Below, one piece after another: positions 1 through 12,317 of a stretch of DNA of 14,774 bases. Source of the stretch: an uncultured beta proteobacterium (lineage in GTDB: Bacteria; Pseudomonadota; Gammaproteobacteria; Burkholderiales; Rhodocyclaceae); NCBI GenBank assembly GCA_903910495.1, contig CAIVZW010000201.1, positions 1 through 14,774 of the forward strand. Reading direction: 5' to 3'. The notes beneath the pieces are model-generated. The model was not told the DNA's origin and did no database searches. It worked only from the letters and a program-made list of their open reading frames with translations. Each line of letters starts with the position of its first letter. Within the stretch, counting starts at the first letter, position 1. A program made the translations under genes and the position numbers.

Positions 1-130
1 GCAGTTGGCCACCGTCGTCCACGATACTGATGCACTCTGCCTTGTTCATTGCCACCGCCTTCGCGACTGCCGCATCGATCATCTTCATCGCACCGACATA
101 GGTCAGCCGAAGGTGTTTGTCTACGTTCAT
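1..130 (-). CDS. GlcG/HbpS-like (DUF336) protein, partial 5' end
   Basis: Only the first 43 codons are visible; the gene continues beyond the left edge. The translation begins MNVDKHLRLTYVGAM and continues with a helix rich in Ala and Lys, then the segment CISIVDDGGQL. This is the usual start of the GlcG/HbpS (PF03928, 'haem-degrading') family: Leu-Thr, an alpha helix, then a strand ending V-D-x-G-G. Family members bind haem or corrinoid, or are accessory proteins in glycolate, propanediol and amidohydrolase clusters; the role here is unknown. The ATG at 130-128 is preferred over an in-frame ATG at 145-143 because a GGAGAG ribosome site sits about 6 nt upstream of it. The gene follows the amidohydrolase stop by 20 nt, so the two are almost certainly one operon. 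Confidence 0.78.
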   Translation of the reverse strand, partial: MNVDKHLRLTYVGAMKMIDAAVAKAVAMNKAECISIVDDGGQL

Positions 131-150
131 TATTGCGCTCTCCATAAAAA

Positions 151-1266
151 CTACGCTTTCGCTTCGGCAATTACACAGACCAGGTTGGCGCCGGGGGGGC
201 CCTGATGCTCGGCGCCGGCCGACGCGAGAAACATTGTGTCGCCGACGATTGTCGCCACGATGGCATGGGCGACTGCCTTGGCCTGAATGCCGCTGAACGG
301 CGCCAGAAAGTCGGAATGCAGGACATGGCGGCGGCCCCGCACATTTGTCACGTAGTCTGCACCAGCATTCACCAGTACCCCGGCGATGCGCTCACGATCA
401 GCATCTACCACCACGCCGTCCTTGAGTTCGAGGCCCGCTTGCGCAAAAGCGCTGCGCGCGCCAGCAATATCAAGCTGATCTTGCATCACTCCATGTGCAG
501 CAATCATCCGGCCAGGAGCGCCATGGACATTGCCGATCACGAGCACGCGGCACGCTACCTGTTCCCCTCCCGCCGACGTCGACGCTACGGAAGAAAACAG
601 TGACTTATCGACGTTGATCATGCCGTCCGTGAGTTTGCCACGTTCGACCTCGCCGGTTGCCACCGCGACGCCAAGCGCACAGGCACCTTTAGCCAGCGAC
701 GACGCTACGACCGGATTGCCATTGACAACCTTCTTGCCACGCTTCTCGGCGTCCGCGATGCGTGCGGGTGTCATTGCCGGACATTTGACTTCGACGCACT
801 CAATCTGGGAAGAATCGGTGATACCGGCGTCTTGCATGGCCGTACGCACGGCCTCAGTGACAAGGTCTACCTCAACCATGGTGCCGTATTCTTCGGGCAG
901 CAGAGGGCGCGAACTGGCAACGCCAAGTGCGAGGCGCTTGCCCTTCCCCGACGCGTTACAAGGTTGCTTGATGAACAGGTTGATGTGCGGGGACATGATG
1001 CCGCCTACTCCGCCGATCATCATCATCGGGATCTTGGCGAACACTTCCGCGCGGGAAATTTGCAGTCGCTCAGACAGCAGAACTTCCATAGCCAACGTGG
1101 CATAGCCCCGGGCATACGGATCGCCCTCGGTTTGCTCCATGATTGCGACAACATGCGCGGGATCAACCGTTTTGTTGTCGAACAGTGCAGCAACCCCGGA
1201 CACATCGCCAGGGGAACTCATAGCCACACGAATAACCGTGCATTCAAATTGTAAATCCGGGGACAT
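151..1266 (-). CDS. Ring-opening amidohydrolase, barbiturase/cyanuric acid hydrolase family
   Basis: A 371-residue protein matching the length and three-repeat layout of the AtzD/barbiturase family, which hydrolyses cyclic imides (cyanurate to carboxybiuret, barbiturate to ureidomalonate) in the cytoplasm. Visible landmarks are SSPGDVSG (17-24), the unit-1 segment EQTEGDP (44-50), IGGVGGIMSPH (84-94), VKCPAMTPA (160-168), SVASTSAGGE (226-235), RGRRHVLHSD (310-319) and the C-terminal ASAGAEHQGPPG (348-359). Compared with AtzD as I recall it, the central Lys-Ser dyad (K161, S231) is intact, but the unit-1 Lys and Ser are Q45 and I84 and the unit-3 Lys is N300. The substrate may therefore not be barbiturate or cyanurate. 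An ATG nine bases upstream (1275) abuts the AGGAG ribosome site, so the second ATG at 1266 (9 nt spacing) is taken. It is divergent from the AllG/FdrA cassette, which suggests it feeds a ureido acid to it. Family call firm; substrate unknown. Confidence 0.88.
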   Translation of the reverse strand: MSPDLQFECTVIRVAMSSPGDVSGVAALFDNKTVDPAHVVAIMEQTEGDPYARGYATLAMEVLLSERLQISRAEVFAKIPMMMIGGVGGIMSPHINLFIKQPCNASGKGKRLALGVASSRPLLPEEYGTMVEVDLVTEAVRTAMQDAGITDSSQIECVEVKCPAMTPARIADAEKRGKKVVNGNPVVASSLAKGACALGVAVATGEVERGKLTDGMINVDKSLFSSVASTSAGGEQVACRVLVIGNVHGAPGRMIAAHGVMQDQLDIAGARSAFAQAGLELKDGVVVDADRERIAGVLVNAGADYVTNVRGRRHVLHSDFLAPFSGIQAKAVAHAIVATIVGDTMFLASAGAEHQGPPGANLVCVIAEAKA

Positions 1267-1275
1267 GCTAATCAT

Positions 1276-1312
1276 CTCCTTTCACTGATTGCAGGAGGCA
1301 AAGACGGCCTCC
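1276..1312 (-). promoter_or_regulatory. Leader hairpin with alternative pairing to the ribosome site
   Basis: In the minus-strand leader, GGAGGC (1312-1307) can pair with GCCTCC (1299-1294) around a 7-nt loop. The 3' arm overlaps CTCCT (1297-1293), which is complementary to the AGGAG ribosome site (1280-1276) of the amidohydrolase with a 12-nt loop. The two pairings exclude each other, as in a translational switch. The pairings are seen in the sequence; the regulatory role is inferred. Confidence 0.35.
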
Positions 1313-1496
1313 AAACGCTTCTTTGGCTCGCGGGGGCGGCGCAGAATGAGGACGACCTGAATTTAGGTGCATATTTGGTACTCGCTTTCAGTCGTGATGT
1401 AAAAATACTGATGCAGCTTTATTTAGTAATTTTTCCAACGGCCATCGGAACTGGCGAAGGGGAAGTGCGCTTCTTATTCAGCATCAGTCAAGGCGT

Positions 1497-1525
1497 ATTT
1501 TATTAATACAATTATTACTTGTCAA
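1497..1525 (-). promoter_or_regulatory. Sigma70 promoter for the amidohydrolase operon
   Basis: Read on the minus strand, a perfect TTGACA (-35, 1525-1520) is followed after 17 bp by TAAAAT (-10, 1502-1497). Transcription would begin near 1490, giving a leader of about 225 nt before the amidohydrolase start codon. This is the best-matched promoter in the window. Confidence 0.6.
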
Positions 1526-1553
1526 GAAAATAATATGGCGATTTCGGATGGGT

Positions 1554-1605
1554 CAGCCAAATAGAAGCAGTACCGTGTTGCGCTTGCCCATGATCCAGCC
1601 AAATA
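1554..1605. repeat. Direct repeat CAGCCAAATA, 42 bp apart
   Basis: The 10-mer CAGCCAAATA occurs at 1554-1563 and 1596-1605. The start-to-start distance of 42 bp is about four helical turns. Both copies lie upstream of the -35 box of the minus-strand promoter, where activator sites would be expected. No regulator gene is in the window. Confidence 0.35.
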
Positions 1606-1667
1606 AGGCTGGAAGATTCTGGCAACCCCTTGAAAGGGACAGGGGTCACCGGAGGAATCAGGGCTGG
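1595..1667. other. Cluster of nested inverted repeats in the divergent gap
   Basis: CCAGCC (1595-1600) can pair with GGCTGG at 1607-1612 (6-nt loop) or with a second GGCTGG at 1662-1667. Between them ACCCC (1625-1629) pairs with GGGGT (1642-1646), and CCCTT (1627-1631) with AAGGG (1634-1638). It does not match any riboswitch class I can recall. It may be a REP-like or insertion remnant, an operator region or a structured leader for the plus-strand genes. Confidence 0.3.
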
Positions 1668-1870
1668 TAAACTGTTAGTAACTTACTGATTTAAATATAA
1701 TTTTAGATCTTATACATAGCACCGCATAAAAGACCTCTTCGTGAAACCTGTTGATTACTTTGCTTTCTGAAGAATGGCGAATATGGTGATCGGACCGGAC
1801 CATGCCGAATGCCCTCTTGCGACAGAACCAACCCAAATGCACATATCAACAAGAGATAAGTAATAATTTG

Positions 1871-1900
1871 TTGACTACAGTAGGCACGCCGAAGTAAACT
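1871..1900 (+). promoter_or_regulatory. Possible sigma70 promoter for cassette A
   Basis: TTGACT (1871-1876) and TAAACT (1895-1900) are separated by 18 bp. Each matches the sigma70 consensus only partly, so this is a weak candidate. It is the only candidate seen between the divergent genes in the plus orientation; it would give a leader of about 160 nt for the AllG-type gene at 2070. Confidence 0.25.
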
Positions 1901-1901
1901 T

Positions 1902-2018
1902 ATGAATGCACCTCGCTCGCTGATGCTTTCTAACGTGAGTAAAGCAATAGCCGTGATACTTGCCTTCATTCTGAGTTTCTGGGGCCTGTTAGAAGTCGTT
2001 TCGCGGCTTCTCGTATAG
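1902..2018 (+). CDS. Possible 38-residue membrane peptide or gene remnant
   Basis: The frame starts MNAPRSLMLSNVSKA and then has one clear hydrophobic helix (residues about 15-31), ending EVVSRLLV before a TAG. The helix followed by Arg resembles the N-terminal helix of transporter subunits (ABC-type permeases or TRAP DctQ), so this may be the stump of a lost transporter gene rather than a functional peptide. No good ribosome site is seen, and the weak promoter box at 1895-1900 lies directly before its ATG. It ends at the edge of the tandem duplication. Confidence 0.22.
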   Translation: MNAPRSLMLSNVSKAIAVILAFILSFWGLLEVVSRLLV

Positions 2019-2092
2019 GGGAATCTTGACACATGAGAGCAACTAACAAACTTTCAAGGGAATCTTGACATGAGAGCAGCTAACAAACTTTC
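2019..2092 (+). repeat. Tandem duplication over the AllG-type start codon
   Basis: The segment 2019-2055 is repeated at 2058-2092, differing by a 2-nt deletion (ACAC to AC) and one A-to-G change. Each copy holds a GGGAATCTTGAC leader and an ATG followed by Arg-Ala. The upstream copy (ATG at 2033) codes for only 11 residues and stops with TGA at 2066-2068, one base before the real ATG at 2070. The near identity suggests a recent duplication. Confidence 0.85.
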
Positions 2093-3305
2093 GGTTGAGC
2101 GCATGCTCGCTTCGAACCCCGTGCTTGTCGATATCATTCCGGCCCACGAAGCGATGCCTGGGCTCAGAAAGAATCTCTTCTTGCATGCCGGTCCACCAAT
2201 CAAATTCAAAGACATGTGTGAGCCGATGCGCGGGTCCGTAATATGTGCCGCGCTTCACGAAGGCCTTGCATCGACACCCGAAGAGGCAATCGAACTTGTC
2301 GAAAATGGCGGGATAGAGTTCGATCCCTGCCACGCCCATAAAGCCGTAGGTCCGATGACGGGGCTTACTACGTATTCCATGCCGGTATGGGTCATTGAGG
2401 ATAGAAACACCGGGCAGCGCGCTTACAGCAACGTGTCTGAAGGTCAGGGGGTTGGCCTGCGCTTTGGTGAATACGGTCAGAAAACACTCGATCGGCTCGA
2501 CTGGATCGAGCAAACGGCCGCTCCCATTTTTCAAAAAGTTATAAAGGATCTGGGGGGCGTGGATCTGGCGCCGCTCATCGGCCAGGGCCTCGCCATGGGC
2601 GATGAATTCCACATGCGGAATCTGGCCAGCACGGCGCTGCTCATCAAGTTGATGGCTCCTGCGATCATCAGACATGCGGGCAAGCATGCCGAAGACATTA
2701 TGCGTTTCATAGCAGTGGGCAACGATCAGTTCTTCCTGACCATCGTCATGGCAGCGATGAAACTTGCAGCCGATGCCGGTGACGGGGTGAAGGGTTCCTC
2801 TGTCGTCACGGCAATCGCAAGAAATGGCGTTGAAGTCGGCATCAGGATTTCCGGGCTGCCTGGCAGGTGGTTCACAGCACCCGCCCCCATGGTTGAAGGG
2901 CTTTATTTTCCGGGTCGAACTGCAGCGGATGCCAACCCGGATCTCGGAGATTCAGCCATCATGGAGGTCGGCGGTCTGGGCGGGTGCGCCATGCTTGCCG
3001 CTCCTGCTATCGTCCGTTTCGTGGGTGCAGCAAGTGTCGATGTGGCTTGGAAAACGACCGAGAATATGTATCGGATCACTCTGACGGAAAATCCCAAGTA
3101 TCAAATCCCGATACTGGATTTTAAAGGCGTGCCTTACTGCATTGATGCCGCGCTGGTTGTCGAAACAGATATCACCCCGATCCTCAACACCGCAATCGCT
3201 TCAAACAAGGCCGGAGTTGGCATGGTAGGCGCGGGCATGTCTACCGTACCCATGGAGCCGTTCAAGGCGGCATTGTTGGCTCTTGCCGAAGATCTGAATA
3301 TCTAG
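2070..3305 (+). CDS. ylbE: AllG/YlbE-type DUF1116 protein, cassette A
   Basis: A 411-residue cytosolic protein of the DUF1116 family, close in length to E. coli YlbE/AllG, which together with FdrA/AllF and YlbF/AllH is reported to form oxamate carbamoyltransferase (oxalurate + Pi to oxamate + carbamoyl phosphate). Conserved segments seen: PAHEAMPGL (24-32), HAGPP (39-43), EPMRGS (51-56), PCHAHKAVGPMTG (86-98), LAMGDEFHMRN (174-184), ARNGVEVGIR, WFTAPAPMVEGLYFPG, DANPDLGDSA and a Gly-rich C-terminal segment. AGGGA lies 8 nt before the ATG at 2070. It lacks the roughly 70-residue N-terminal domain found in the cassette B paralog; that domain is encoded separately at 4975. The gene lies ahead of its FdrA-type partner, the reverse of cassette B. 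It may use a ureido acid other than oxalurate, since it faces the amidohydrolase operon. Family firm, substrate inferred. Confidence 0.87.
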   Translation: MRAANKLSVERMLASNPVLVDIIPAHEAMPGLRKNLFLHAGPPIKFKDMCEPMRGSVICAALHEGLASTPEEAIELVENGGIEFDPCHAHKAVGPMTGLTTYSMPVWVIEDRNTGQRAYSNVSEGQGVGLRFGEYGQKTLDRLDWIEQTAAPIFQKVIKDLGGVDLAPLIGQGLAMGDEFHMRNLASTALLIKLMAPAIIRHAGKHAEDIMRFIAVGNDQFFLTIVMAAMKLAADAGDGVKGSSVVTAIARNGVEVGIRISGLPGRWFTAPAPMVEGLYFPGRTAADANPDLGDSAIMEVGGLGGCAMLAAPAIVRFVGAASVDVAWKTTENMYRITLTENPKYQIPILDFKGVPYCIDAALVVETDITPILNTAIASNKAGVGMVGAGMSTVPMEPFKAALLALAEDLNI

Positions 3306-3336
3306 CAGACATCTAGGCGCTTACGAAACACTGATC

Positions 3337-3350
3337 TTGTTCACGAACAA
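3337..3350. promoter_or_regulatory. Palindrome upstream of FdrA-type gene A
   Basis: TTGTTC-AC-GAACAA is a perfect palindrome with 6-bp arms in the 113-bp gap between the AllG-type and FdrA-type genes. It is compatible with an operator or a short hairpin and has no T-tract. Confidence 0.35.
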
Positions 3351-3372
3351 TACCGAAGTGAGTTTCCTGATA

Positions 3373-3394
3373 TTTACGTGGAATTATGCGTAAA
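3373..3394. promoter_or_regulatory. Inverted repeat TTTACG-N10-CGTAAA
   Basis: Perfect 6-bp arms at 3373-3378 and 3389-3394 are separated by 10 bp and lie just upstream of the FdrA-type ribosome site. The arm spacing suits a dimeric regulator. Function is inferred. Confidence 0.3.
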
Positions 3395-3418
3395 CGATAG
3401 ACCTGAACGGAGATGATT

Positions 3419-4963
3419 ATGCTGAAAAACGTTGTAAGGAAGAACAGTTATTATGACTCCGCGACACTGATGCTGGTTAGCAGCAAGGTGGCGCAGCAAG
3501 TGCGTGGTTCTAAGAACATCGCAGTTCTGATGGCGACCGAAATGAACAAGGAGCTCATGCGCGGCGCGGGGCTGCTGAATGAGGATGGAGAGGCGGCCGC
3601 CCCCAACGATCTGATATTCGCCGTTCGGTCTGATACCGTGGAAGAGATTGAAGCTGCGATCGCCTCCGCCGTCGAAATCCTCGAGAAGAAAAACACCGAG
3701 AGGGCTTCTCGCAACGAGGGTCGTAACTACAAGACGACTCAGGAGGCTCTGAGCGCGCTTGGTGGCGCCGATATTGCGGTCATATCTCTTCCTGGGGCCT
3801 TTGCACATTTCGAGGCGAAACGCCTTCTGAATGCGGGCGTCAACATATTGATGTTCTCGGACAATGTGTCGCTTGAGAATGAGAATATGCTTAAGGATCT
3901 GGCTCTTGAAAAGAATCTGCTGATGATGGGGCCGGACTGTGGCACGGCTGTCATCAATGGCGTGGGCCTCGGCTTCTCCAACAAGGTGAAGCCCGGGTGC
4001 GTAGGCATCGTGGCTGCATCCGGCACCGGTCTGCAGGAGGTCATGACGCTGGTAAGCAATTTTGGTGGCGGGATCAGTCAAGCGCTCGGCACCGGCGGCC
4101 GCGATGTGAAAGAGGAAGTCGGCGGCAAGATGATGCTTCACTGCATCGATATGCTGGAGGCCGACCCACGGACCGAAATCATCGTGATCGTATCAAAGCC
4201 CCCTGCCCCGTCGGTCACAGCAAAGCTCTCCGAGCGCATTAAAAAGCTGTCAAAACCGGTTGTGGCTTGCCTGCTGGGTGATACCTCCAACCTTCTTGGC
4301 GATACCCGTTGTTATGTTGCGCACACTCTGACAGAGACTGCGCAAATCTGTCTCGATCTTGTGGTCGGAAAAGGCGCGACCATACCATCGCGTGGCGACG
4401 AAAACGAGGTGGTCCGGAAGGTCAAGGAGGGATTGAGTGGATCGCAGAAATACATCCGCGGTTTGTACTGCGGCGGAACGCTCTCTTATGAGACGCAGCT
4501 CATCATTCGGAATGCATTGGGAGCTGTCTATTCCAACGCGCCCTTGAACTATGATTTCAAGCTTCACGATTCGCAGTTTTCTCGTGAACACACCGTACTG
4601 GACTTGGGTGAGGATGAGTTTACGGTCGGACAACCGCACCCGATGATCGAGCCTTCGTTGCGCCGTGAGCGCTTGCTTCGAGAAGCACTTGATCCAAGCG
4701 TGGCAGTTATCGCTTTGGATATATACATTGGCTACGGATCTCACGATGAAGCCGGCAAGCTTTTGGCCGAGCACGTAACCGAAGCCCGTGAGCTTCTTGC
4801 CAGAGAGGGCAGGTCTGTAGGTTTCTTTGCCAGGATCTGCGGTAGCTTTGAAGACTACCAAGGCTATGAAACCCAGAAAGAGATCCTGGAAGCTGCAGGC
4901 ATCACTGTCTTTGAAACCAACGAGCAGTGCGCACGTGCTGCGGTTGCTGTCGTTTCACAATAA
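3419..4963 (+). CDS. fdrA: FdrA/AllF-type protein, cassette A
   Basis: A 514-residue protein of the FdrA family, built like the alpha subunit of succinyl-CoA synthetase (N-terminal Rossmann-type domain, then a ligase-like domain). It is predicted to be the AllF-type subunit of a ureido-acid carbamoyltransferase. Visible motifs: MFSDNVSLE (145-153), GPDCGT (171-176), GIVAASGTGLQE (196-207), GTGGRD (224-229), SKPPAPS (259-265), RGLYCGGTL (347-355), LGEDEFTVGQPHPMI (396-410) and DIYIGYGSHDEA (434-445). An ATG at 3413 overlaps its own ribosome site, so the second ATG at 3419 (GGAG, 6 nt spacing) is preferred. E. coli FdrA is about 40 residues longer; the missing C-terminal piece matches the separate gene that begins 11 nt downstream. 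The exact substrate is unknown. Confidence 0.88.
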   Translation: MLKNVVRKNSYYDSATLMLVSSKVAQQVRGSKNIAVLMATEMNKELMRGAGLLNEDGEAAAPNDLIFAVRSDTVEEIEAAIASAVEILEKKNTERASRNEGRNYKTTQEALSALGGADIAVISLPGAFAHFEAKRLLNAGVNILMFSDNVSLENENMLKDLALEKNLLMMGPDCGTAVINGVGLGFSNKVKPGCVGIVAASGTGLQEVMTLVSNFGGGISQALGTGGRDVKEEVGGKMMLHCIDMLEADPRTEIIVIVSKPPAPSVTAKLSERIKKLSKPVVACLLGDTSNLLGDTRCYVAHTLTETAQICLDLVVGKGATIPSRGDENEVVRKVKEGLSGSQKYIRGLYCGGTLSYETQLIIRNALGAVYSNAPLNYDFKLHDSQFSREHTVLDLGEDEFTVGQPHPMIEPSLRRERLLREALDPSVAVIALDIYIGYGSHDEAGKLLAEHVTEARELLAREGRSVGFFARICGSFEDYQGYETQKEILEAAGITVFETNEQCARAAVAVVSQ

Positions 4964-4974
4964 GGAGGAGGCCA

Positions 4975-5151
4975 ATGGAAAAGAGCCCGTTGTTCGACAA
5001 GAGTAAGCTCAAGATAATCAATCTCGGTCTGGAAGTACTTAACAACGCAGTCAACATGCAGGGCTCCCAGGGCGTCCATGTAGATTGGCGTCCGCCTGCT
5101 GGCGGTAATCTGCGCCTGATAGAGATCATTGAGCGCCTGAAGGAGATGTGA
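4975..5151 (+). CDS. Stand-alone FdrA C-terminal domain protein (58 aa)
   Basis: A small gene with a very strong ribosome site (AAGGAGGAG) overlapping the stop codon of the FdrA-type gene and 4 nt from the ATG, so real translation is likely. The protein has an IINLGLEVL helix, then GVHVDWRPPAGG (33-44), then a closing helix LRLIEIIERLKEM. The same domain, with IHLDWQPPAHG, forms the N terminus of the cassette B AllG-type protein (7058), and as I recall E. coli FdrA carries it at its C terminus (HYQWSPVAGGNKK). Small 'fdrA domain proteins' of this kind also exist elsewhere. It is probably a subunit or linker of the carbamoyltransferase complex; its chemistry is unknown. It ends directly before IS-derived sequence, but its length fits a natural end. 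Confidence 0.82.
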   Translation: MEKSPLFDKSKLKIINLGLEVLNNAVNMQGSQGVHVDWRPPAGGNLRLIEIIERLKEM

Positions 5152-5179
5152 ACCGCCAGAGTCACTGAGGTCCGCACCT

Positions 5180-5289
5180 ATGAGACAAATACGTCACTCG
5201 GTTGAAGAAAAGATACGCATTGTTTTGGATGGGCTTCGAGGCCAGGACAGAAACCGGCAGAAGAACCAGGCATCCCGATCTATGACTGG
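5180..5289 (+). pseudogene. IS3-family transposase orfA remnant
   Basis: From the ATG at 5180 the frame reads MRQIRHSVEEKIRIVLDGLR, the typical N terminus of an IS3-family OrfA (helix-turn-helix, 'EEKIRIVLEGLRGE'). The homology then breaks off; after a frame change near 5248 it seems to continue as AEEPGIPIYDW, resembling the 'AELCRREGI...YYxW' part of the same protein. No orfB, right end or target-site duplication is seen. It is a dead fragment marking a past insertion or rearrangement between the two cassettes. Confidence 0.6.
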
Positions 5290-5397
5290 GTTTCCGTTTG
5301 TGTCTGGAAATCAATGCTTGTCGCGGGTGTGGATCCAAGTGGGGTGAAGGGCTGGGGTCGCTTGTTTTCGCTCATTTAAGACAGCAGATCGCCCAGC

Positions 5398-5424
5398 AAT
5401 CATGCGGATTGTAGGCATGATTTT
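5398..5424. other. 8-bp inverted repeat, possible weak terminator or operator
   Basis: AATCATGC (5398-5405) and GCATGATT (5415-5422) are perfect inverted repeats around a 9-nt loop, followed by two more T residues. The stem is short and not GC-rich for a terminator; an operator upstream of cassette B is equally possible. Confidence 0.3.
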
Positions 5425-5486
5425 GTCGTCCAATCTGGCGACTGCTGAGTAATTCAATAAAGCTATTAAATCATATCGAGGTACTC

Positions 5487-7058
5487 ATGTTGGCGATAAA
5501 AGTTTTAGTAATGCCGGACACCTATCGGGATTCAGTCTTCCTGATGAAGTTGTCGGGACTGGCGCGTGAAGAAAGTGGTGCTCTTCAGGTCTCGGCCATG
5601 ATGGGTACGGCGAGAAACAAGGATCTGTTCATTCAATCCGGACTGTCGACGCCGGAGGTTGAGGCAGCCAGACCCGATGATCTGATCGTGTCCGTGCAAG
5701 CCGAAGCGACGGAAATCGACAGCGCACTGGACGTGGTCAAGAACCTGCTTGAAGCCGCGCCTTCCAGGAAGAAATCAGGCAACGGTACTTTGGCTTCGGT
5801 ACCCCAGACAATCGATCAGGCTCTTGCAGCCGACAAGGATCTCAATCTGGCGCTGATCAGCGTGGCCGGAGATTATGCCCGCTATGAGGCTGCTCAGGCG
5901 CTACGTGCCGGGCTTGATGTCATGCTCTACAGTGACAACATTTCCACCGCCGATGAACTTGCATTGAAAACTTTGGCGGTACGGAAAAAACGCCTGGTCA
6001 TGGGACCGGACTGCGGCACGGCGATTATCAATGGGGTGCCGCTGGCTTTTGCAAATACTATCCGGCGCGGCTCGATAGGGCTGATCGCTGCTTCGGGAAC
6101 CGGCTTGCAGGAAGTGGCCTGCCTGCTGGATCGATTCGGGGTCGGACTCAGCCAGGCCTACGGCACCGGCGGGCGTGACATGAAGGATGCCATCGGCGGC
6201 ATCACGACGCTGACCGCTCTTGATCGCTTGCTGGAAGATCCGAATACCCAATTTATTGGGATATTGGGCAAACCGCCCGGCGAAAAGACACGGCAAAAAC
6301 TGCTGGAGCGGATCAAGGGTATCCAAAAACCCGTCGCTGTGCACTTTGTGGGAACGACAGATTATTCGCCTGAAGATGCGGCGGGCATCGGGCACGGCGG
6401 AGATCTTACAGCCTTTGCCCTATTGTTGGCCAGGCAGGTCGATAGCTCTGTTAACGCCGAAAATGTGCTCGGATCATTGCCAGCCATTCCTCAAGGCAAA
6501 AAAGGCTTTTTGCGTGGTCTGTTCAGCGGTGGCACCCTGTGCCAGGAAGCGGCCGAGCTGGCAGCGCCTGTTTTGCAAAAGAACCTTTATTCCAACCTTT
6601 CAGTGGCCGGCTATGCGTCCCTCTCGGCGTCCGAGCCGAGCCGTGGAAACGCTTTCTGGGATTTTGGCGACGATGCTTTCACGGTCGGCCGTCCTCACCC
6701 CATGATGGCGCCAGAACTGCGCATGGAGCGCCTGGTGCGCGAACTCCTCGATCCTGAAGTCAGTGTTGTTTTGCTTGATATCGTCATTGGTTACGGTGCT
6801 GCGACGGACCAGGCCGAACTGGTGGTCGAGGCGTTGCGTAAAGCCGATCGGCAATCGCACGGCAAGAGCCGTGAAAAAGTTGTTGTGGCCAGCGTTTGCG
6901 GAACGGAAGGGGATGTGCCTTCACGCTCGATGCAGGCGAGAATCTTGTTCGAGGACGGAGTAATCGTGCCAGGAAGCAACGCCCAGGCGGTGCTTTGGGC
7001 CGCACACACCGCCGCAGAAAAGGCACACAGTATCGAAACTGCCGGAAAGGGATATTAA
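5487..7058 (+). CDS. allF: FdrA/AllF-type subunit, oxamate carbamoyltransferase-like (cassette B)
   Basis: A 523-residue FdrA-family protein. Motifs match the family: SAMMGTARNK (36-45), YSDNIS (148-153), GPDCGT (173-178), GLIAASGTGLQE (198-209), GTGGRD (226-231), then RGLFSGGTL, FGDDAFTVGRPHPMM and DIVIGYGAATD. With AllG and AllH it is expected to catalyse phosphorolysis of a ureido acid (oxalurate in E. coli) to an amide acid plus carbamoyl phosphate in the cytosol. GAGGT precedes the ATG by 5 nt. It is the first gene of a five-gene set, and its stop TAA overlaps the next start (TAATG), implying coupled translation and a complex. Like its cassette A paralog it lacks the C-terminal small domain seen in E. 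coli FdrA; here that domain is fused to the next protein. The two paralogs share motifs but differ widely between them, so they are not a recent duplication. Confidence 0.88.
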   Translation: MLAIKVLVMPDTYRDSVFLMKLSGLAREESGALQVSAMMGTARNKDLFIQSGLSTPEVEAARPDDLIVSVQAEATEIDSALDVVKNLLEAAPSRKKSGNGTLASVPQTIDQALAADKDLNLALISVAGDYARYEAAQALRAGLDVMLYSDNISTADELALKTLAVRKKRLVMGPDCGTAIINGVPLAFANTIRRGSIGLIAASGTGLQEVACLLDRFGVGLSQAYGTGGRDMKDAIGGITTLTALDRLLEDPNTQFIGILGKPPGEKTRQKLLERIKGIQKPVAVHFVGTTDYSPEDAAGIGHGGDLTAFALLLARQVDSSVNAENVLGSLPAIPQGKKGFLRGLFSGGTLCQEAAELAAPVLQKNLYSNLSVAGYASLSASEPSRGNAFWDFGDDAFTVGRPHPMMAPELRMERLVRELLDPEVSVVLLDIVIGYGAATDQAELVVEALRKADRQSHGKSREKVVVASVCGTEGDVPSRSMQARILFEDGVIVPGSNAQAVLWAAHTAAEKAHSIETAGKGY

Positions 7059-8482
7059 TGACTACGAATGCCCCACACGTGCTGGCCTTGGGTGTTGATG
7101 CCTTTATCGCAGTGCTTGAAGAGACTGGCACTCCGTATATCCATCTGGACTGGCAACCGCCGGCTCACGGCGATACCGATCTGATAGGACTCCTGTTCCG
7201 GCTTGAGACGCAACTTGTCAATGAGGCCGGTGAATCCCTGATTGACCTCGCCAATGCCGAAGCTTTCCGTCGTCTCAAATCGGGTCAGCCGGTACTCAAG
7301 CGGGTACGGCCGGCGCACGAATGTCTGCCGGGCTTGACCAAAACCACGATCAACCACGCCGGTCCGCCGGTGCGCTGGGAAGAGATGTGCGGCCCAATGC
7401 GTGGCGCGTATATCGGAGCGCTCAAATACGAAGGTCTGGCCACGACCGACGCTGAAGCCGAGGCTTTGATGGCTTCGGGAAAGATCAGTTACGGCCCCAA
7501 TCATGCCCACGGCGCGGTCGCCCCGATGACGGGCATGATCTCCTATTCGATGCCCTTGTTTGAAGTCGAGAACGAGGCTTTCGGCAATAAGGCATACTGC
7601 CCGATCAATGAAGGCATTGGCCAAGTCATGCGTTTCGGTGCCAACGGCCCGGAAGTGATCGAGCGTCTGCACTGGCTCGAGAAGGTACTCGCCCCCGCCA
7701 TTGACGCCACTTTGGTGGCAACCGGCGGAGTGAACCTGAAAAACATCATGGCGCAATCCCTGGCGATGGGTGACGAGATGCACCAGCGCAACGTGGCGTC
7801 CAGTCTTCTCTTCTACAAGTCGATTGCCGTCGAACTGGCCAAGGTTATCGCACCGATGCCAGGCGGGCATGAAATTGTGAGTTTCCTGGTTGCTAAAAAC
7901 GAACAATTTTTCCTTAATCTGGCGATGGCGGCATGCAAGTCGCTCACCGATCCTCTGCGGAACATTCCTTACAGCACAGTGATCACGGCCATGAGCCGCA
8001 ACGGTGTCGACTTCGGCGTCAATATCAGTGCGCTAGGCGATGCCTGGTTTACTGCCCCTTGCCTGCTGCCCGAAGCGCTGTACTTCCCCGGATATACGGA
8101 GGCTGACGCCAATCCGGACATGGGCGACTCGGCGATTGTCGAATGCTGCGGGATCGGCGGTTTTGCCATGGGTTCGGCACCGGCAGTCGTGCGCTTTGTT
8201 GGCGCCGGTGGCCTGGAGGACGCACAACGCTACTCGGAAAACATGGCACGTATCACCGTGGGCACGAACAACGATCTCGCCATGCCGACCATGGATTTTG
8301 CCGGCGTGTCTCAGGGCATTGATATCCGCAAGGTTGTGGCAACGGGCATCTTGCCGGTGATCAATACGGGTGTTGCGCACCGCCTGCCCGGTGTCGGTCA
8401 AGTCGGTGCGGGGATTGTGACGCCGCCGATGTCCGTCATGACGCAGGCATTGGAAGCCTTTGCTGTGAAGTATGGCGTATGA
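7058..8482 (+). CDS. allG: AllG/YlbE-type DUF1116 protein with fused N-terminal FdrA small domain
   Basis: A 474-residue protein. Residues about 8-50 (LGVDAF, then IHLDWQPPAHG at 28-38) are the same small domain encoded alone at 4975. Residues from about 68 on are a full DUF1116 protein: RPAHECLPGL (84-93), HAGPP (100-104), GPMRGA (112-117), then NHAHGAVAPMTG, NEGIGQVMRFGA, LAMGDEMHQRN, SRNGVDFGV, WFTAPCLLPEALYFPG and DANPDMGDSA. The NEGIG-x-VMRFGA stretch is closer to E. coli AllG, as recalled, than the cassette A copy is, which supports an oxamate carbamoyltransferase role. The ATG shares a base with the upstream stop (TAATG), with AAGGGA as ribosome site. The stop overlaps the permease start (ATGA). 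The fusion is unlike both E. coli and cassette A. Confidence 0.88.
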   Translation: MTTNAPHVLALGVDAFIAVLEETGTPYIHLDWQPPAHGDTDLIGLLFRLETQLVNEAGESLIDLANAEAFRRLKSGQPVLKRVRPAHECLPGLTKTTINHAGPPVRWEEMCGPMRGAYIGALKYEGLATTDAEAEALMASGKISYGPNHAHGAVAPMTGMISYSMPLFEVENEAFGNKAYCPINEGIGQVMRFGANGPEVIERLHWLEKVLAPAIDATLVATGGVNLKNIMAQSLAMGDEMHQRNVASSLLFYKSIAVELAKVIAPMPGGHEIVSFLVAKNEQFFLNLAMAACKSLTDPLRNIPYSTVITAMSRNGVDFGVNISALGDAWFTAPCLLPEALYFPGYTEADANPDMGDSAIVECCGIGGFAMGSAPAVVRFVGAGGLEDAQRYSENMARITVGTNNDLAMPTMDFAGVSQGIDIRKVVATGILPVINTGVAHRLPGVGQVGAGIVTPPMSVMTQALEAFAVKYGV

Positions 8483-10074
8483 ATCTACCGGTTGACTTTG
8501 TCACATGGACGGGAGCAGGGCTTCCCATCGCTCTGCTCCTTTATTTGCTTGTGTGGCGACACTGGTCGGCGGTTCGGGCCGCCGTGGCCGGGGCTGTTGC
8601 GGCCATGCTGGTGGCCTTTCTTCTGTATCGTTCGCCGTTTTCCTTGATCGGTGTGGAAATCGCCAAAGGCGTCTGGAACAGCCTGTCGATCATCGCCGTA
8701 ATTCTCCCCGCTATTCTTATCTATGAGGTTAGTAACGAAGTGGGTGGCTTCTCAGCGATCCAGCGCGATCTGACCCGGCTGATTCCCGACAAGCTCTTGC
8801 AGATTCTTGCTTTGGGTTGGTGTTTTGCCAGTTTCTTGCAAGGACCCTCAGGCTTTGGTGTACCGATTGCCGTGACTGCGCCGCTGCTCATCGGCATCGG
8901 CGTCAGGCCGTTCTGGGCCGTATTGGTGCCATTGATGGCACATGCCTGGGCCAATACCTTTGGCACGCTGGCCCTAGCCTGGGAGGCCCTTGTCCAGCAG
9001 ACATCGCTGGGTAGCGACACTGTGGCTTACTGGCAAGCGGCCTGGTGGACGGGCATTCTTACCGGCTTACTTTGCCTGCTTGCCGGCAGCATTATCTGCT
9101 GGCAATACCGGGGTTTTGCAGGATTGCGCCGGGGTTGGCCTGCCGTGCTGATTCTGGGTGGCATTCAGGCCGGAGGACAGCTGCTCCTCAGCCAGATCAC
9201 ACCGACGCTATGTGCCCTGATTCCGGCAACACTGGCTCTGGGAGCAGTCTTTGTGCTGGCACGCTTGCCTCGCTACGCGACGCCTGAAACCGGTTCTCCA
9301 AGCCCGATGCTAATGGAAGAAAGCCGGCTTGCTCAGGTTCCCGTGTCAATGAGTCTGCATGAGGCCTTGCTGCCGTACTACATCCTGGTCGGCATTTCTG
9401 TCTTCGTATTGTTGACGCCGCCCGTCACCGAAGTGCTCGGCGCATGGAAGATGAGCGTTTCCTTTCCCGCAACTATGACCGGTTTCGGTTTTGTCAACAA
9501 GGCCCAGACCGCCTATGGGCCGGTGACCTGGCTGACCCATTCCGGCTTCTTCCTTCTGCTCGCCGCCGTACTGTCGGGGGCCTATTTCTCCTTTAAGGGC
9601 TTGATTCGCGAAGGTGGTTTGATGCGCATTGCGGGAAATACCCTTAAAAAGTCGGTTCCAGCGGTGGTCTCCGTGGTTTTTCTTCTGGCCATGAGCAAAG
9701 TCATGAGCGGTAGCGGGCAGGTCGAGGTTCTGGCCAGGGGAACCGCCGCCGCGACGGGCAATTACTACGCTTTTCTGGCGCCTCTGGTCGGCACTCTGGG
9801 TGCCTTCATGTCCTCAAGCAACGTGAGTTCCAACATCCTGTTCGGTCAATTCCAGGAGTCCATGGCACATCTGACGGGAAAGAGTGTGGTAGTCATCCTT
9901 GCGGCACAGACCAGCGGGGCTGCGATCGGCACGATGTTCTCGCCGTCCAAGGTGCTACTCGGAACCACGACTGCCGGCATTATCGGTCAAGAAGGGGCGA
10001 TCATCAAAAAACTGCTCGGCATAGCCTTGCTTGCTGCAGCGATCATGGGCACCATTAGTTTCATCTTCACGTAA
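8479..10074 (+). CDS. LldP/LctP-family permease, predicted small 2-oxo/amide acid transporter
   Basis: A 531-residue inner-membrane protein with about 12-14 hydrophobic helices. Family signatures of the lactate permease family (TC 2.A.14) are seen: FLQGPSGFGVPIAVTAPLL, then AHAWANTFGTLALAWEAL, and near the C terminus SSSNVSSNILFGQFQ followed by QTSGAAIGTMFSPSKVLLG. Known members move L-lactate, D-lactate and glycolate with protons. It starts inside the AllG stop codon (ATGA overlap), so it is co-translated with the carbamoyltransferase genes. Oxamate (H2N-CO-COOH) is an isostere of pyruvate and lactate, so transport of oxamate or a ureido acid is a reasonable inference; lactate uptake is the alternative. 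Confidence 0.85.
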   Translation: MNLPVDFVTWTGAGLPIALLLYLLVWRHWSAVRAAVAGAVAAMLVAFLLYRSPFSLIGVEIAKGVWNSLSIIAVILPAILIYEVSNEVGGFSAIQRDLTRLIPDKLLQILALGWCFASFLQGPSGFGVPIAVTAPLLIGIGVRPFWAVLVPLMAHAWANTFGTLALAWEALVQQTSLGSDTVAYWQAAWWTGILTGLLCLLAGSIICWQYRGFAGLRRGWPAVLILGGIQAGGQLLLSQITPTLCALIPATLALGAVFVLARLPRYATPETGSPSPMLMEESRLAQVPVSMSLHEALLPYYILVGISVFVLLTPPVTEVLGAWKMSVSFPATMTGFGFVNKAQTAYGPVTWLTHSGFFLLLAAVLSGAYFSFKGLIREGGLMRIAGNTLKKSVPAVVSVVFLLAMSKVMSGSGQVEVLARGTAAATGNYYAFLAPLVGTLGAFMSSSNVSSNILFGQFQESMAHLTGKSVVVILAAQTSGAAIGTMFSPSKVLLGTTTAGIIGQEGAIIKKLLGIALLAAAIMGTISFIFT

Positions 10075-10081
10075 TTCGGGA

Positions 10082-10252
10082 GCGGCAATTAATCCATTCT
10101 TTTGGTTATCCAATGAGCAGGGACGTACTCCGCTTTCACTGATCGCACTGCTGGCTTCGGCACCCTTGCTTGGACACCCCGAATACGATCTGGGCATGAG
10201 CACCTGTCTTGGTTGGAACCTGCTTGCCGTATCGCTGATCCTGCCGCTGTAG
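10082..10252 (+). pseudogene. Possible C-terminal remnant of a membrane protein
   Basis: Between permease and kinase, one frame is open to a TAG at 10250-10252 and reads NPFFWLSNEQGRTPLSLIAL, then a Gly-His-Pro-Glu turn and a second hydrophobic helix WNLLAVSLILPL. Its codon use looks like coding sequence, but no start codon or ribosome site opens it (the only upstream ATG lies inside the permease gene). It may be the tail of a deleted transporter gene. I cannot name the family. Confidence 0.3.
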
Positions 10253-10307
10253 TCGCGGATAAAAGCAATTTTTTAGTAAACCAAACAATATAGAACTGGA
10301 GCTGGCT

Positions 10308-11267
10308 ATGAGTGGAAATGCAAGAACCCGACCCCTAGTAGTGGTCGCTGTAGGCGGCAATGCGCTCCTGCGCGAAAACCAAAAGGGAACCATCGCCGAG
10401 CAGGCTGCCAATGTCGAAGACTGTTCAGATCAACTCATCAAGATCATCGACGCAGGTTTTCAATTGGTGCTGACACACGGCAACGGGCCCCAGGTCGGAC
10501 TGATCATGTTGCGTGACTCCTATCCCGGCGCCGTTATTCCGCCGATGCCACTTTACATTTACAGCGCTGAGTCGCAAGGACAGATCGGTTTCCAACTCAT
10601 GAACGGCCTGTCCAACCGGCTTGCCCTCAAGGGAATAGAGGATGCCGTGGCCACGGTCCTAACACGCGTTGTCGTCGACATCAACGATCAGGGCTTTAAG
10701 AAACCAACAAAGCCGGTTGGGCCGTTTTACAGCGTTGAAGTCATTGATGCCTTGTCAAAGGTTTTTGGCTTTGCCTATATCGAAGACAGCGGTCGTGGCT
10801 ATCGCAAGGTGGTAGCTTCACCAAAACCCCAGGAGATCGTTGAAATTGGCCTGATTCGCGACATTCTGGCGTCCGGGCGTTCGCTCATCGCGGCAGGGGG
10901 TGGCGGTATCCCTGTCATCCGTAAGGAAAACGGTGTTCTGGAAGGCGTTGACGCTGTCATCGACAAGGACCTTTCTTCCGCCATTCTGGCCGAGCAGGTT
11001 GGGGCCGAGGTACTGATGATCTTGACCGGGGTTGAGCAGGTGGCAGTTAACTTTGGCAAACCCGATATGCGTAAACTCGGCGAAATATCCCTGAAGGAGG
11101 CAAAACGCTATTATGCTGAGGGGCATTTCCCGCCCGGAAGCATGGGGCCAAAAATGTCGGCGGCAATCAATTTTGTTGAGCGAAGCGGCGGCAAGGCAAT
11201 CATCACGAGCTTGGAAAAAGCCACGGAAGCCCTGACGGGCCTGACCGGAACCACAATCCGGCCCTAA
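10308..11267 (+). CDS. arcC: Carbamate kinase, catabolic
   Basis: A 319-residue kinase of the amino-acid kinase fold catalysing carbamoyl phosphate + ADP to carbamate (to NH3 and CO2) + ATP. Diagnostic segments: VVAVGGNALLREN near the N terminus, THGNGPQVG, GRGYRKVVASPKP, AAGGGGIPV, DAVIDKDLSSAILAEQ, MILTGVEQVAVNFGKP and PPGSMGPKMSAAINF. Length is normal for ArcC/YbcF. GGAG lies 7 nt before the ATG. In E. coli the corresponding kinase gene (ybcF/allK) stands beside allFGH, and the same grouping here says the carbamoyl phosphate comes from AllFGH rather than from citrulline; no arginine deiminase genes are seen. It is the ATP-yielding step for one and perhaps both cassettes. Confidence 0.93.
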   Translation: MSGNARTRPLVVVAVGGNALLRENQKGTIAEQAANVEDCSDQLIKIIDAGFQLVLTHGNGPQVGLIMLRDSYPGAVIPPMPLYIYSAESQGQIGFQLMNGLSNRLALKGIEDAVATVLTRVVVDINDQGFKKPTKPVGPFYSVEVIDALSKVFGFAYIEDSGRGYRKVVASPKPQEIVEIGLIRDILASGRSLIAAGGGGIPVIRKENGVLEGVDAVIDKDLSSAILAEQVGAEVLMILTGVEQVAVNFGKPDMRKLGEISLKEAKRYYAEGHFPPGSMGPKMSAAINFVERSGGKAIITSLEKATEALTGLTGTTIRP

Positions 11268-11351
11268 CGGGCATGGCTGAGGAGCCACCCCAAATTATGA
11301 AATACGAAGGCTTGCCCGTTTCCCTCACCCCCGACCCCTTGCGTTGGCAGA

Positions 11352-12317
11352 ATGACCGAAATGTCATCCTCCGATCCACTAAATGCCGCCTTCGTTAACG
11401 GGGCCTCACCTTTGCGCCGAATCGTTCTGGGTCGTAGCATTGACGCGGCGTTCTTGCGGGTGCTGGAGGCGCGGTCTTTCAACGGCCGGGTGCACAGCGT
11501 ATTCACTCGCGTGGTTAACATCGAATGCACAACCGGCAAACTTTTCACGCTTGCCGGATCGGGGTTGGATAACGCGCCAAACACAGCCATCGTTGGTGTC
11601 ACAGACTTTGACGCCTGCGACATCGCAGTGAACGATCCAGTGGCGGCGACAAAAGGGGAGCTGCGCGTTGGTGACGGCGTCGTCGTGCATTGGACAGCGG
11701 CGTCAATTTGGCGAGCACAACTTCCACGATATGCGGATGCGGACGGAAACCTGCAAGCTCGATTGGATTGGGTTCAGTCATATCTGGTGCGCAACGGTGC
11801 GCAAGGCGGTTTTGTCGGTCAGGCCCCGTCCGATAACGCGTTCGCACGCCAGATGGGCATCACACTCAAACATCGATCCGGCTCACTATTGGATGCTCTT
11901 GAGCGGATGCACATGAGCACTGCCTGCCAACACGCAAAATCGATGATCGGCCTCGGCCCGGGTCTGACGCCTGCCGGCGACGATTTCCTTGTCGGTTTGT
12001 TCGCGGTACTGAACTTGCGTGGCAGCCCATGCTGCGGCTGGCTGGCTGGCGGCAAGGATGTGCTTTTGCATGCTGAACAATTGACCAATGCAATTAGCTT
12101 GGCGGCCTTGGTCGCCGCCGCGAACGGCCAAGTGCGTGAGACGATCTCGCGGCTTATCGAAACCTTGATATGTGGGACGCTCGCAACGCTAACCGAATCG
12201 CTGGACCGTGTGCTGGCCATCGGAAGCACATCAGGTTCCGACTTGGTCGCAGGCATACTGGCGGGCCTGAAACTCAACTTGCGGATCGAAGCAATCGGAT
12301 CAAGCAATTCACCGTGA
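11352..12317 (+). CDS. allH: AllH/YlbF-type DUF2877 protein
   Basis: A 321-residue DUF2877 protein, the third component reported for E. coli oxamate carbamoyltransferase. The hallmark GLGPGLTPAGDDFLVGLFAV lies in the second half (from about residue 200), followed by a helical segment and the closing motif GSTSGSDLVAGILAGL. It is somewhat longer than E. coli YlbF. The ATG at 11352 has only a weak upstream GGCAG; an in-frame ATG at 11361 is an alternative start, and the frame is closed by a TGA at 11298-11300. It is the last gene of cassette B, 84 bp after the kinase. It is the only DUF2877 gene in the window, so either both AllFG pairs share it or cassette A works without it. Confidence 0.85.
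   Translation: MTEMSSSDPLNAAFVNGASPLRRIVLGRSIDAAFLRVLEARSFNGRVHSVFTRVVNIECTTGKLFTLAGSGLDNAPNTAIVGVTDFDACDIAVNDPVAATKGELRVGDGVVVHWTAASIWRAQLPRYADADGNLQARLDWVQSYLVRNGAQGGFVGQAPSDNAFARQMGITLKHRSGSLLDALERMHMSTACQHAKSMIGLGPGLTPAGDDFLVGLFAVLNLRGSPCCGWLAGGKDVLLHAEQLTNAISLAALVAAANGQVRETISRLIETLICGTLATLTESLDRVLAIGSTSGSDLVAGILAGLKLNLRIEAIGSSNSP

Follow-up and report, generated by a model that had tools for sequence, protein, structure and literature searches.

Clusters of genes for AllF, AllG, AllH and carbamate kinase are known from Escherichia coli, and ring-opening hydrolases of the AtzD/TrzD/barbiturase family are known as cyanuric acid hydrolases and barbiturase. A stretch of DNA of 14,774 nucleotides from an uncultured beta proteobacterium (contig CAIVZW010000201.1), below called the window, carries both kinds of gene in one locus. 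From its genes we lean towards reading this locus as a catabolic module for a cyclic ureide, in which ring opening would be followed by phosphorolysis to carbamoyl phosphate and by the formation of adenosine triphosphate (ATP).

In E. coli, AllFGH converts oxalurate and phosphate to oxamate and carbamoyl phosphate, a reaction that was assayed in reverse (PMC11326118; this and the other papers are cited for those of their passages that concern these enzymes). Two regions of the E. coli chromosome, allFGHK (oxamic transcarbamylase and a catabolic carbamate kinase) and yahEFGIJ, keep genes for AllF, AllG, AllH and carbamate kinase clustered, as the window does. The products of yahEFGIJ are recorded as putative, by DUF only, or at the level of the family. 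Compared with E. coli, the window has in addition an AtzD-family hydrolase and two AllFG sets, one of which has a small module as a separate gene. Aligned from end to end, the first AllG of the window is 44% identical to E. coli AllG; the first AllF is 43% identical to YahF, and the carbamate kinase 47% identical to YahI. AllH is 28% identical to YahE and 25% to E. coli AllH. The kinase, AllH and both AllF proteins resemble YahI, YahE and YahF more than they do the products of the all genes, and both AllG proteins are closer to AllG.

With the AtzD and TrzD cyanuric acid hydrolases and barbiturase, the window enzyme shares the Toblerone fold, the residues Ser234, Lys164 and Glu238, and Arg56. 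It differs from them in having Lys195, Lys325 and Ala345 (AtzD numbering), in falling in a separate clade, and in having two broken Ser-Lys dyads.

Two further systems are similar in their logic. In Rubrobacter, one cluster for purine degradation combines the opening of a ring and a phosphorolysis that yields carbamoyl phosphate with a gene for carbamate kinase. There the enzymes are an allantoinase and a transferase resembling aspartate transcarbamylase (ureidoglycine carbamoyltransferase), the substrate is known, and the phosphorolysis of allantoate was assayed (Barba et al. 2013, PMC4016543). The genomes of comammox Nitrospira and ammonia-oxidising archaea have allFGH and allK beside biuret and triuret (acyl-urea type) genes, but the biuret route there is hydrolytic, and the authors of that study report no atzD in their nitrifier genomes (PMC12625717). 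An earlier note on the window, made from its sequence, had taken the phosphorolytic route to be undescribed. As to the logic, this has to be corrected, since Barba et al. 2013 (PMC4016543) report such steps with allantoinase, carbamoyltransferase and carbamate kinase. The logic of the pathway is already known with unrelated enzyme families, and the combination of an AtzD-family hydrolase with AllFG is a new variant of it. In the open-licence literature, among the matches listed, no title or abstract joins an AtzD-family hydrolase with AllFG/FdrA or carbamate kinase; PMC12625717 mentions both kinds of gene, atzD as missing from its genomes.

The hydrolase, assigned to a clade named 'QTEGD', is encoded on the minus strand (151..1275; PF09663, 366 bits). 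The other members of the system are on the plus strand. The first set consists of AllG1 (DUF1116; 2070..3305; PF06545, 272 bits), a short form that lacks the small N-terminal module, of AllF1 (FdrA; 3413..4963; NF004760, 454 bits with a cut-off of 433), and of the stand-alone module (4975..5151 including the stop). The second set consists of AllF2 (FdrA; 5487..7058; NF004760, 434 bits, same cut-off of 433) and AllG2 (DUF1116; 7058..8482; PF06545, 272.5 bits), a long form that carries the small module N-terminally. These are followed by carbamate kinase (10308..11267), which passes the cut-off of the arcC equivalog TIGR00746 (367 against 358 bits), and by AllH (DUF2877; 11352..12317; PF11392, 88 bits). 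All three subunits are thus encoded, with two AllF, two AllG and a single AllH for both sets. The earlier note had listed the hydrolase, two FdrA/DUF1116 pairs, a DUF2877 protein and a carbamate kinase in this locus, and all of them are present at their places. Its list was right as far as it went, but it missed the permease of the LctP family and the module of 58 residues.

Linkage of the hydrolase with AllFG

The reading given above draws on what can be observed in the genomes, namely gene content, linkage across phyla, co-occurrence, and differences in the active site. Related loci were collected as contigs matching two short conserved peptides. The 34 loci obtained are not a full census; their genomes are related and not independent, so that the Fisher values computed for them serve only as description, and several loci are on short contigs (for instance L009, L023, L026, L028 and L032). 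As far as the contigs extend, AllG lies within 10 kilobases (kb) of the hydrolase in 18 of the 34 loci. AllG is present in 24 of the 34 genomes that have a relative of the hydrolase. In 20 of these 24 it lies within 10 kb of an AtzD-family gene, a figure that copy number and genome size would put at about 0.2, so the linkage is not due to chance. The distance between the two genes is mostly 0.4-3 kb. Such linkage spans Proteobacteria, Bacillota, Rokubacteria and Binatia/Deltaproteobacteria, and conserved adjacency, which the earlier note had set beforehand as a check on its proposal, is therefore found in several phyla. For two of the 20 genomes (G013, G032) the linkage is through another copy or fragment than the locus that was fetched. 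The second AtzD-family copy beside AllG in the first of these (G013:C122:23854-24971) looks broken, with one internal stop that splits it into two matches.

Among 14 well-known control genomes, PF09663 occurs in none and AllG in E. coli alone. A survey of 385 sampled Alphaproteobacteria, which includes two genomes (G003 and G007) whose linkage was known beforehand, gave PF09663 in 22 genomes, AllG in 37, and both in 7. Three of these seven are linked: G003 and G007, which are of the QTEGD type, and G156. The two families lie on different contigs in the others (G136, G162, G191 and G331). G156 is the sole linked genome among the 20 surveyed that have non-QTEGD types. Its hydrolase (L066, G156:C268) has canonical cyanuric-acid-hydrolase motifs and lies divergent beside AllF and AllG, 3.7 kb from AllG with AllF between them. 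Judging from these motifs, a true cyanurate hydrolase may also be paired with AllFG, as in this genome.

The linkage occurs on two well-supported hydrolase clades, and on the AllG tree the label 'linked' needs at least five gains or losses. The pairing of the hydrolase with AllFG was therefore probably assembled more than once. In the window, AllF2 and AllG2 are each sisters of the second set of a Clostridiaceae locus (L012), with a support of 100/100. AllG1, which is flagged as a long branch, is near the first set of that locus (89/57), and AllF1 is near the same set together with YahF (90/91). Since one type of hydrolase is found with differing AllFG lineages, the association argues for a common function rather than for shared descent of one cluster.

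An alternative is that the two parts are neighbours and not partners. AllFG, AllH and the kinase would then serve a purine route of the oxalurate or allantoin type, and the hydrolase would belong to a separate pathway that was captured alongside. Such a set of genes, AllFGH and carbamate kinase, is known for oxalurate (PMC11326118). Two genomes (G003, G004) have the second AllG and AllH on a contig other than that of the hydrolase, and the closest resemblance of the window's AllFG sets is to those of one member of the Clostridiaceae, not to those beside the hydrolase in L001-L007. Against this stand the frequency, the spread over phyla and the short distances of the linkage in 20 of 24 genomes, the presence of other hydrolases where AllG is not nearby, and the fact that all ten genomes without AllG are also without AllH and a full-length carbamate kinase match. 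On this evidence we regard mere neighbourhood as fairly unlikely, and continue with the reading of the locus as one catabolic module.

A proposed route from the carbamoyl group to ATP

In the pathway as proposed, the reactions, the substrate and what each AllFG set does are all inferred. The hydrolase would use its remaining Ser234-Lys164 dyad to open a ring with an N-CO-N group. Ring opening would release a linear acid bearing a terminal carbamoyl (ureido) group. Next, AllF and AllG, joined by the small module and, if E. coli is a guide, by AllH, would cleave off the carbamoyl group with phosphate, giving carbamoyl phosphate and an amide or amine. Finally, carbamate kinase would transfer the phosphate of carbamoyl phosphate to adenosine diphosphate. 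The two AllFG sets probably act on two different carbamoylated intermediates.

The permease of the LctP family (8479..10074, plus strand; PF02652, 271 bits) would move a carboxylate of the pathway in or out. Because oxamate resembles pyruvate and lactate, the permease may export an oxamate-like acid; alternately, it may import a carboxylate substrate. Its gene overlaps that of AllG2 by 4 bases (ATGA), and the genes of AllF2 and AllG2 overlap as TAATG. An LctP permease is found in locus L007 as well.

The sequence of AllF suggests where the transfer would end. Residues 106-292 of AllF resemble the alpha chain of succinyl-coenzyme A synthetase, and AllF contains a CoA-ligase domain. The loop of that chain that carries the phosphohistidine has no counterpart in the eight AllF proteins aligned, in an alignment that is gap-rich there and that includes SucD without its last residues. 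The reaction of AllF is therefore expected to go no further than the acyl phosphate, which in this case is carbamoyl phosphate.

Among the 34 genomes, AllH and the kinase are found only together with AllG. AllH is present in 14 of the 24 genomes with AllG and in none of the 10 without it. A full-length carbamate kinase match (329-420 bits) is present in 13 of the 24 and again in none of the 10; the line for such a match is our own, drawn in the gap between 329 and 37 bits, and 6 of these 13 also score above the curated cut-off. Genes for ring opening, carbamoyl transfer and the kinase lie within about 14 kb on one contig in the window, G002, G007 and G012. The kinase is part of the same cluster in the window, L007 and G002.

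Within the QTEGD clade, the residue at AtzD position 195 divides the relatives of the window enzyme. Lysine is found in seven (L001-L004, L007, L012 and L020), as in the window, where it is K196, and AllG lies within 10 kb in six of them. These six also have AllH and carbamate kinase in their genomes, and two or more copies of AllG. Arginine is found in seven others (L005, L006, L008-L011 and L029), which form one clade with a support of 100/99. AllG, AllH and a full-length carbamate kinase match are present in none of the genomes of this second group. Their loci have a luciferase-type monooxygenase (6 of 7), NMT1-type transporters (6), a GatA-type amidase (5) and an isochorismatase-family hydrolase (4), which in L006 is a biuret amidohydrolase above the NCBIfam cut-off. 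In L006, L008, L010 and L029, the hydrolase with arginine is clustered with NMT1-type ATP-binding cassette (ABC) transporters, a GatA-type amidase, a luciferase-type monooxygenase and an isochorismatase-family gene resembling biuret hydrolases. The arginine clusters are possibly a hydrolytic sister pathway.

A similar exchange is seen in the whole sample. A gene of the amidase, CN-hydrolase or FmdA type lies within 6 kb of the hydrolase in 9 of the 16 loci without a nearby AllG and in none of the 18 with AllG, a contrast for which the families were picked after the loci had been inspected. Two of the loci with AllG (L002 and L021) do carry such an amide-hydrolase gene, but more than 8 kb away. 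If the isochorismatase family is included, the contrast becomes 9 of 16 against 1 of 18, the one exception on the AllG side being a copy in L003 at 4.3 kb from the hydrolase. In loci without a nearby AllG, the phosphorolytic second step looks like it has been replaced by a hydrolytic one.

That exception, and a number of other observations, count against the module as proposed. In four genomes (G018, G019, G023 and G024) AllG and the hydrolase are on different contigs. The label 'linked' shows no clustering on the AllF tree, where 176 of 500 shuffles are as low. The AllFG sets of the window do not group with those beside the closest relatives of its hydrolase, whose AllG genes form a group of their own. 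The E. coli regions allFGHK and yahEFGIJ are without an AtzD-family gene, so the presence of AllFG alone does not imply the pathway. L020/G020, a relative with lysine at position 195, lacks AllG, AllH and carbamate kinase. Of the 24 AllG genomes, 11 are without a full-length carbamate kinase match and 10 without AllH. All six genomes of Binatia/Deltaproteobacteria (G021, G025, G026, G028, G032 and G034) are without both, and in these AllG sits 0.4-0.6 kb from the hydrolase. Two of them, G021 and G025, are Binatia at chromosome level, with AllG at 0.4 kb. As the kinase and AllH are missing despite such tight linkage, linkage need not mean ATP formation or an enzyme that depends on AllH.

The earlier note had proposed that the energy wasted by ureidomalonase or biuret hydrolases would here be kept as ATP. 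For genomes of the window's type the proposal is backed by a kinase in 6 of 6 that have AllG; it does not extend to the 11 of 24 AllG genomes in which no kinase match was found. Linkage of the two genes therefore does not in general bring ATP recovery with it.

The same absences could mean that AllFG does not phosphorolyse the ring-opened product but, for example, hydrolyses it, transfers an acyl group or acts as a ligase, with the carbamate kinase being incidental. The CoA-ligase domain of AllF would suit such a reaction. However, none of the 34 genomes has carbamate kinase or AllH without also having AllG, the kinase is clustered with the other genes in the window, L007 and G002, and a biochemically known member of the family is a transcarbamylase (PMC11326118). 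We consider this explanation unlikely, and phosphorolysis within the catabolic module remains the reading we prefer.

The active site of the hydrolase and its ring

The PF09663 match covers residues 14-370 of the hydrolase. Its predicted model has a mean predicted local distance difference test (pLDDT) score of 89, and the best match in the PDB is the cyanuric acid hydrolase of Moorella (6bup; template modelling score 0.89); barbiturase structures were also matched. The enzyme is about 40% identical to cyanuric acid hydrolases, and Arg56 is conserved. Its counterpart in L007, from Rhodoplanes serenus DSM 18633, is 82% identical to it. It scores 313 bits with the NCBIfam equivalog for cyanuric acid amidohydrolase (NF052395), under the cut-off of 360.

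Cyanuric acid hydrolases have three Ser-Lys dyads, of which one whole dyad is left in the window enzyme. This is the central dyad of domain B, S234/K164 with E238, and all three residues are invariant in 34 aligned rows. AtzD numbers were placed by landmarks with the offset taken by eye, K162 being put at K164 of the window enzyme by motif. Placed in this way, AtzD K42 is replaced by Q48, S85 by I87 and K296 by N303, while the serine of domain C is kept (S352). Two of the three dyads are thus broken in the clade of the window enzyme, which also has a deletion of four residues after TEGD. The same three positions are kept in the five structure sequences compared (four cyanuric acid hydrolase chains and one barbiturase). 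The published barbiturase signature is N195/H321/K325/V345/S or A346 (PMC3758960); the window has K/S/K/A/G at these places and two broken dyads, where 5hwe retains all three in the alignment.

In the cyanuric acid hydrolase of Azorhizobium, the central dyad (Ser226/Lys156/Glu230) is described as the sole dyad conserved across the family and is the proposed nucleophile (Cho et al. 2014, PMC4051656). Changing serines of that enzyme (S79A, which is the equivalent of S85, and S333A) costs about 10^8-fold in activity on cyanurate, and changing the lysines about 10^4-fold (PMC4051656). Since the central dyad is kept and residues of the others are changed, the window enzyme should be active on another ring than cyanurate, probably a less symmetrical one. 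The earlier note had named cyanurate and barbiturate, besides parabanate, among the possible substrates, and these examples are doubtful. With three dyad residues changed, cyanurate and barbiturate are unlikely; the matching changes in Azorhizobium cost about 10^4- to 10^8-fold (PMC4051656).

It is accordingly improbable that the window enzyme is a cyanuric acid hydrolase or barbiturase feeding biuret or ureidomalonate to AllFG: the family and the fold are shared, amidases are found close to the relatives that have Arg195, with a biuret amidohydrolase above the NCBIfam cut-off in L006, and G156 pairs canonical motifs with AllG, but here the score is under the NCBIfam cut-off, K42, S85 and K296 are Q, I and N where the five structure sequences keep them, and the loss in S79A is about 10^8-fold (PMC4051656).

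The clade with changed dyads comprises 14 loci and the window, with a support of 100/100, and is separate from the cyanuric acid hydrolases, from barbiturase, and from a clade of Rokubacteria and Binatia. In this tree the bootstrap is not settled, long branches are flagged, and the fragment L032 was left out. A published group V of cyclic amide hydrolases contains one enzyme that is inactive on cyanurate and barbiturate (PMC3758960). An identity with the clade of the window is spoken against by the same paper, in which the dyad residues are given as conserved in all 68 homologues then known (Peat et al. 2013, PMC3758960). A Bacillus subgroup is reported to have lysine in place of the arginine corresponding to AtzD position 195 (Cho et al. 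2014, PMC4051656).

Structure 5hy0, whose title in the PDB is 'orotic acid hydrolase', ranks behind cyanuric acid hydrolases and barbiturase by sequence; we take it to come from Frankia. Relatives of the hydrolase on plasmids (132 records) are every one less than 60% identical. One homologue, P0101, joins a canonical KTEGNG N-terminal part to a remainder of the QTEGD type, and is either a natural chimera or an assembly error.

The neighbours of related hydrolases point to nucleobase-like or hydantoin-like rings. Cytosine-deaminase-like amidohydrolases of the YahJ type are near the hydrolase in L001, L002, L012, L021, L025, L027 and L034, and hydantoinase B in L007, L021 and L025. Other neighbours are a uracil/xanthine permease (L027), Bmp-type binding proteins (L002, L027), a PucR regulator (L012) and, in some relatives, molybdenum subunits of the CoxL/XDH type. 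In six loci of Rokubacteria (L014, L016, L017, L022, L031 and L033), AllG and an AtzD-family gene occur together with such a CoxL/XDH-type subunit, and AllF is visible in five. This set is perhaps an oxidative nucleobase route.

A more specific form of the pathway can be put forward as a tentative possibility. The pathway may be doubly phosphorolytic: the ring would be neither cyanurate nor barbiturate, and the two AllFG sets would take its two carbamoyl groups in turn, for two ATP per ring. All seven systems of the window's type with AllG (the window and six genomes) have at least two copies of AllG. This is not peculiar to the type, as at least two copies also occur in 6 of the 18 other AllG genomes, which tells against the proposal. 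In the survey of Alphaproteobacteria, at least two copies were found in 10 of the 37 AllG genomes, with fragments counted and G003 and G007 included.

The small module, other genes and what the locus may mean

The stand-alone module ('HVDW' protein, 58 residues) was recognized by motif and alignment. Its gene has 58 codons, begins 11 bases past the end of AllF1, and is preceded by AAGGAGGAGG. AllG1 is without roughly the first 60 residues of AllG2. The last 50 residues of E. coli AllF are homologous to that segment of AllG2, as is the N-terminus of YahG; residues 9-51 of AllG2 match the C-terminus of E. coli AllF with E=5e-5. AllG1 was considered as a truncated gene; this was rejected, as it aligns with full-length E. 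coli AllG and the missing N-terminal module is a separate gene.

The module is also a separate frame, just upstream of AllG, in L001, L002 and L007. In L003, L012 and most other matches it is inside the AllG frame. Both AllFG sets of the window contain the module, and it is a movable part of the system. The profile search for it, by a hidden Markov model, gave no match for L004, L022, L027 and the second AllG of L007. The model had seven seeds, including the copies of the window, and was rebuilt from its own first matches, so that E-values of the seeds and of those first matches are partly by construction. Stand-alone homologues are found elsewhere as well (n=34). Four of these already carry the name 'fdrA domain protein' in their source, and the idea of a new family was dropped on account of these homologues.

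Downstream of the hydrolase, the start of an HbpS/GlcG-like gene (2..145, minus strand) is clipped at the edge of the window and gives a weak partial match to PF03928 (20.7 bits, with a cut-off of 25). The same family adjoins the hydrolase in L001-L004, L007 and L020, with a full-length copy (109 bits) in L007. At the other end, 420 bases past AllH, HypF (hydrogenase maturation carbamoyltransferase; 12738..14774, plus strand) runs off the window. HypF, which we take to be a user of carbamoyl phosphate itself, was rejected as a component of the system, with no HypF match in the 34 related loci, and is treated as a neighbour. By eye, the region at about 5180-5310, between the small gene and AllF2, resembles the start of an IS3-type transposase OrfA. 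Likewise by eye, an imperfect tandem repeat with a unit of about 35 bases extends over the start of AllG1 and its upstream region (about 2020-2080). An Rfam search of the window gave no RNA family at the gathering threshold.

Taken as a whole, the interpretation of the earlier note is partly supported. The association ties a distinct clade of hydrolases to a transcarbamylase whose genes were identified only in 2024, and this leads to a concrete assay, the formation of carbamoyl phosphate from the hydrolase product. The search for a substrate is narrowed to rings that open to carbamoyl-N acids. If the reading as a catabolic module is true, bacteria would keep as ATP a part of the energy that is lost in the hydrolytic degradation of ureides, and yahEFGIJ of E. 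coli would join the same group of systems.

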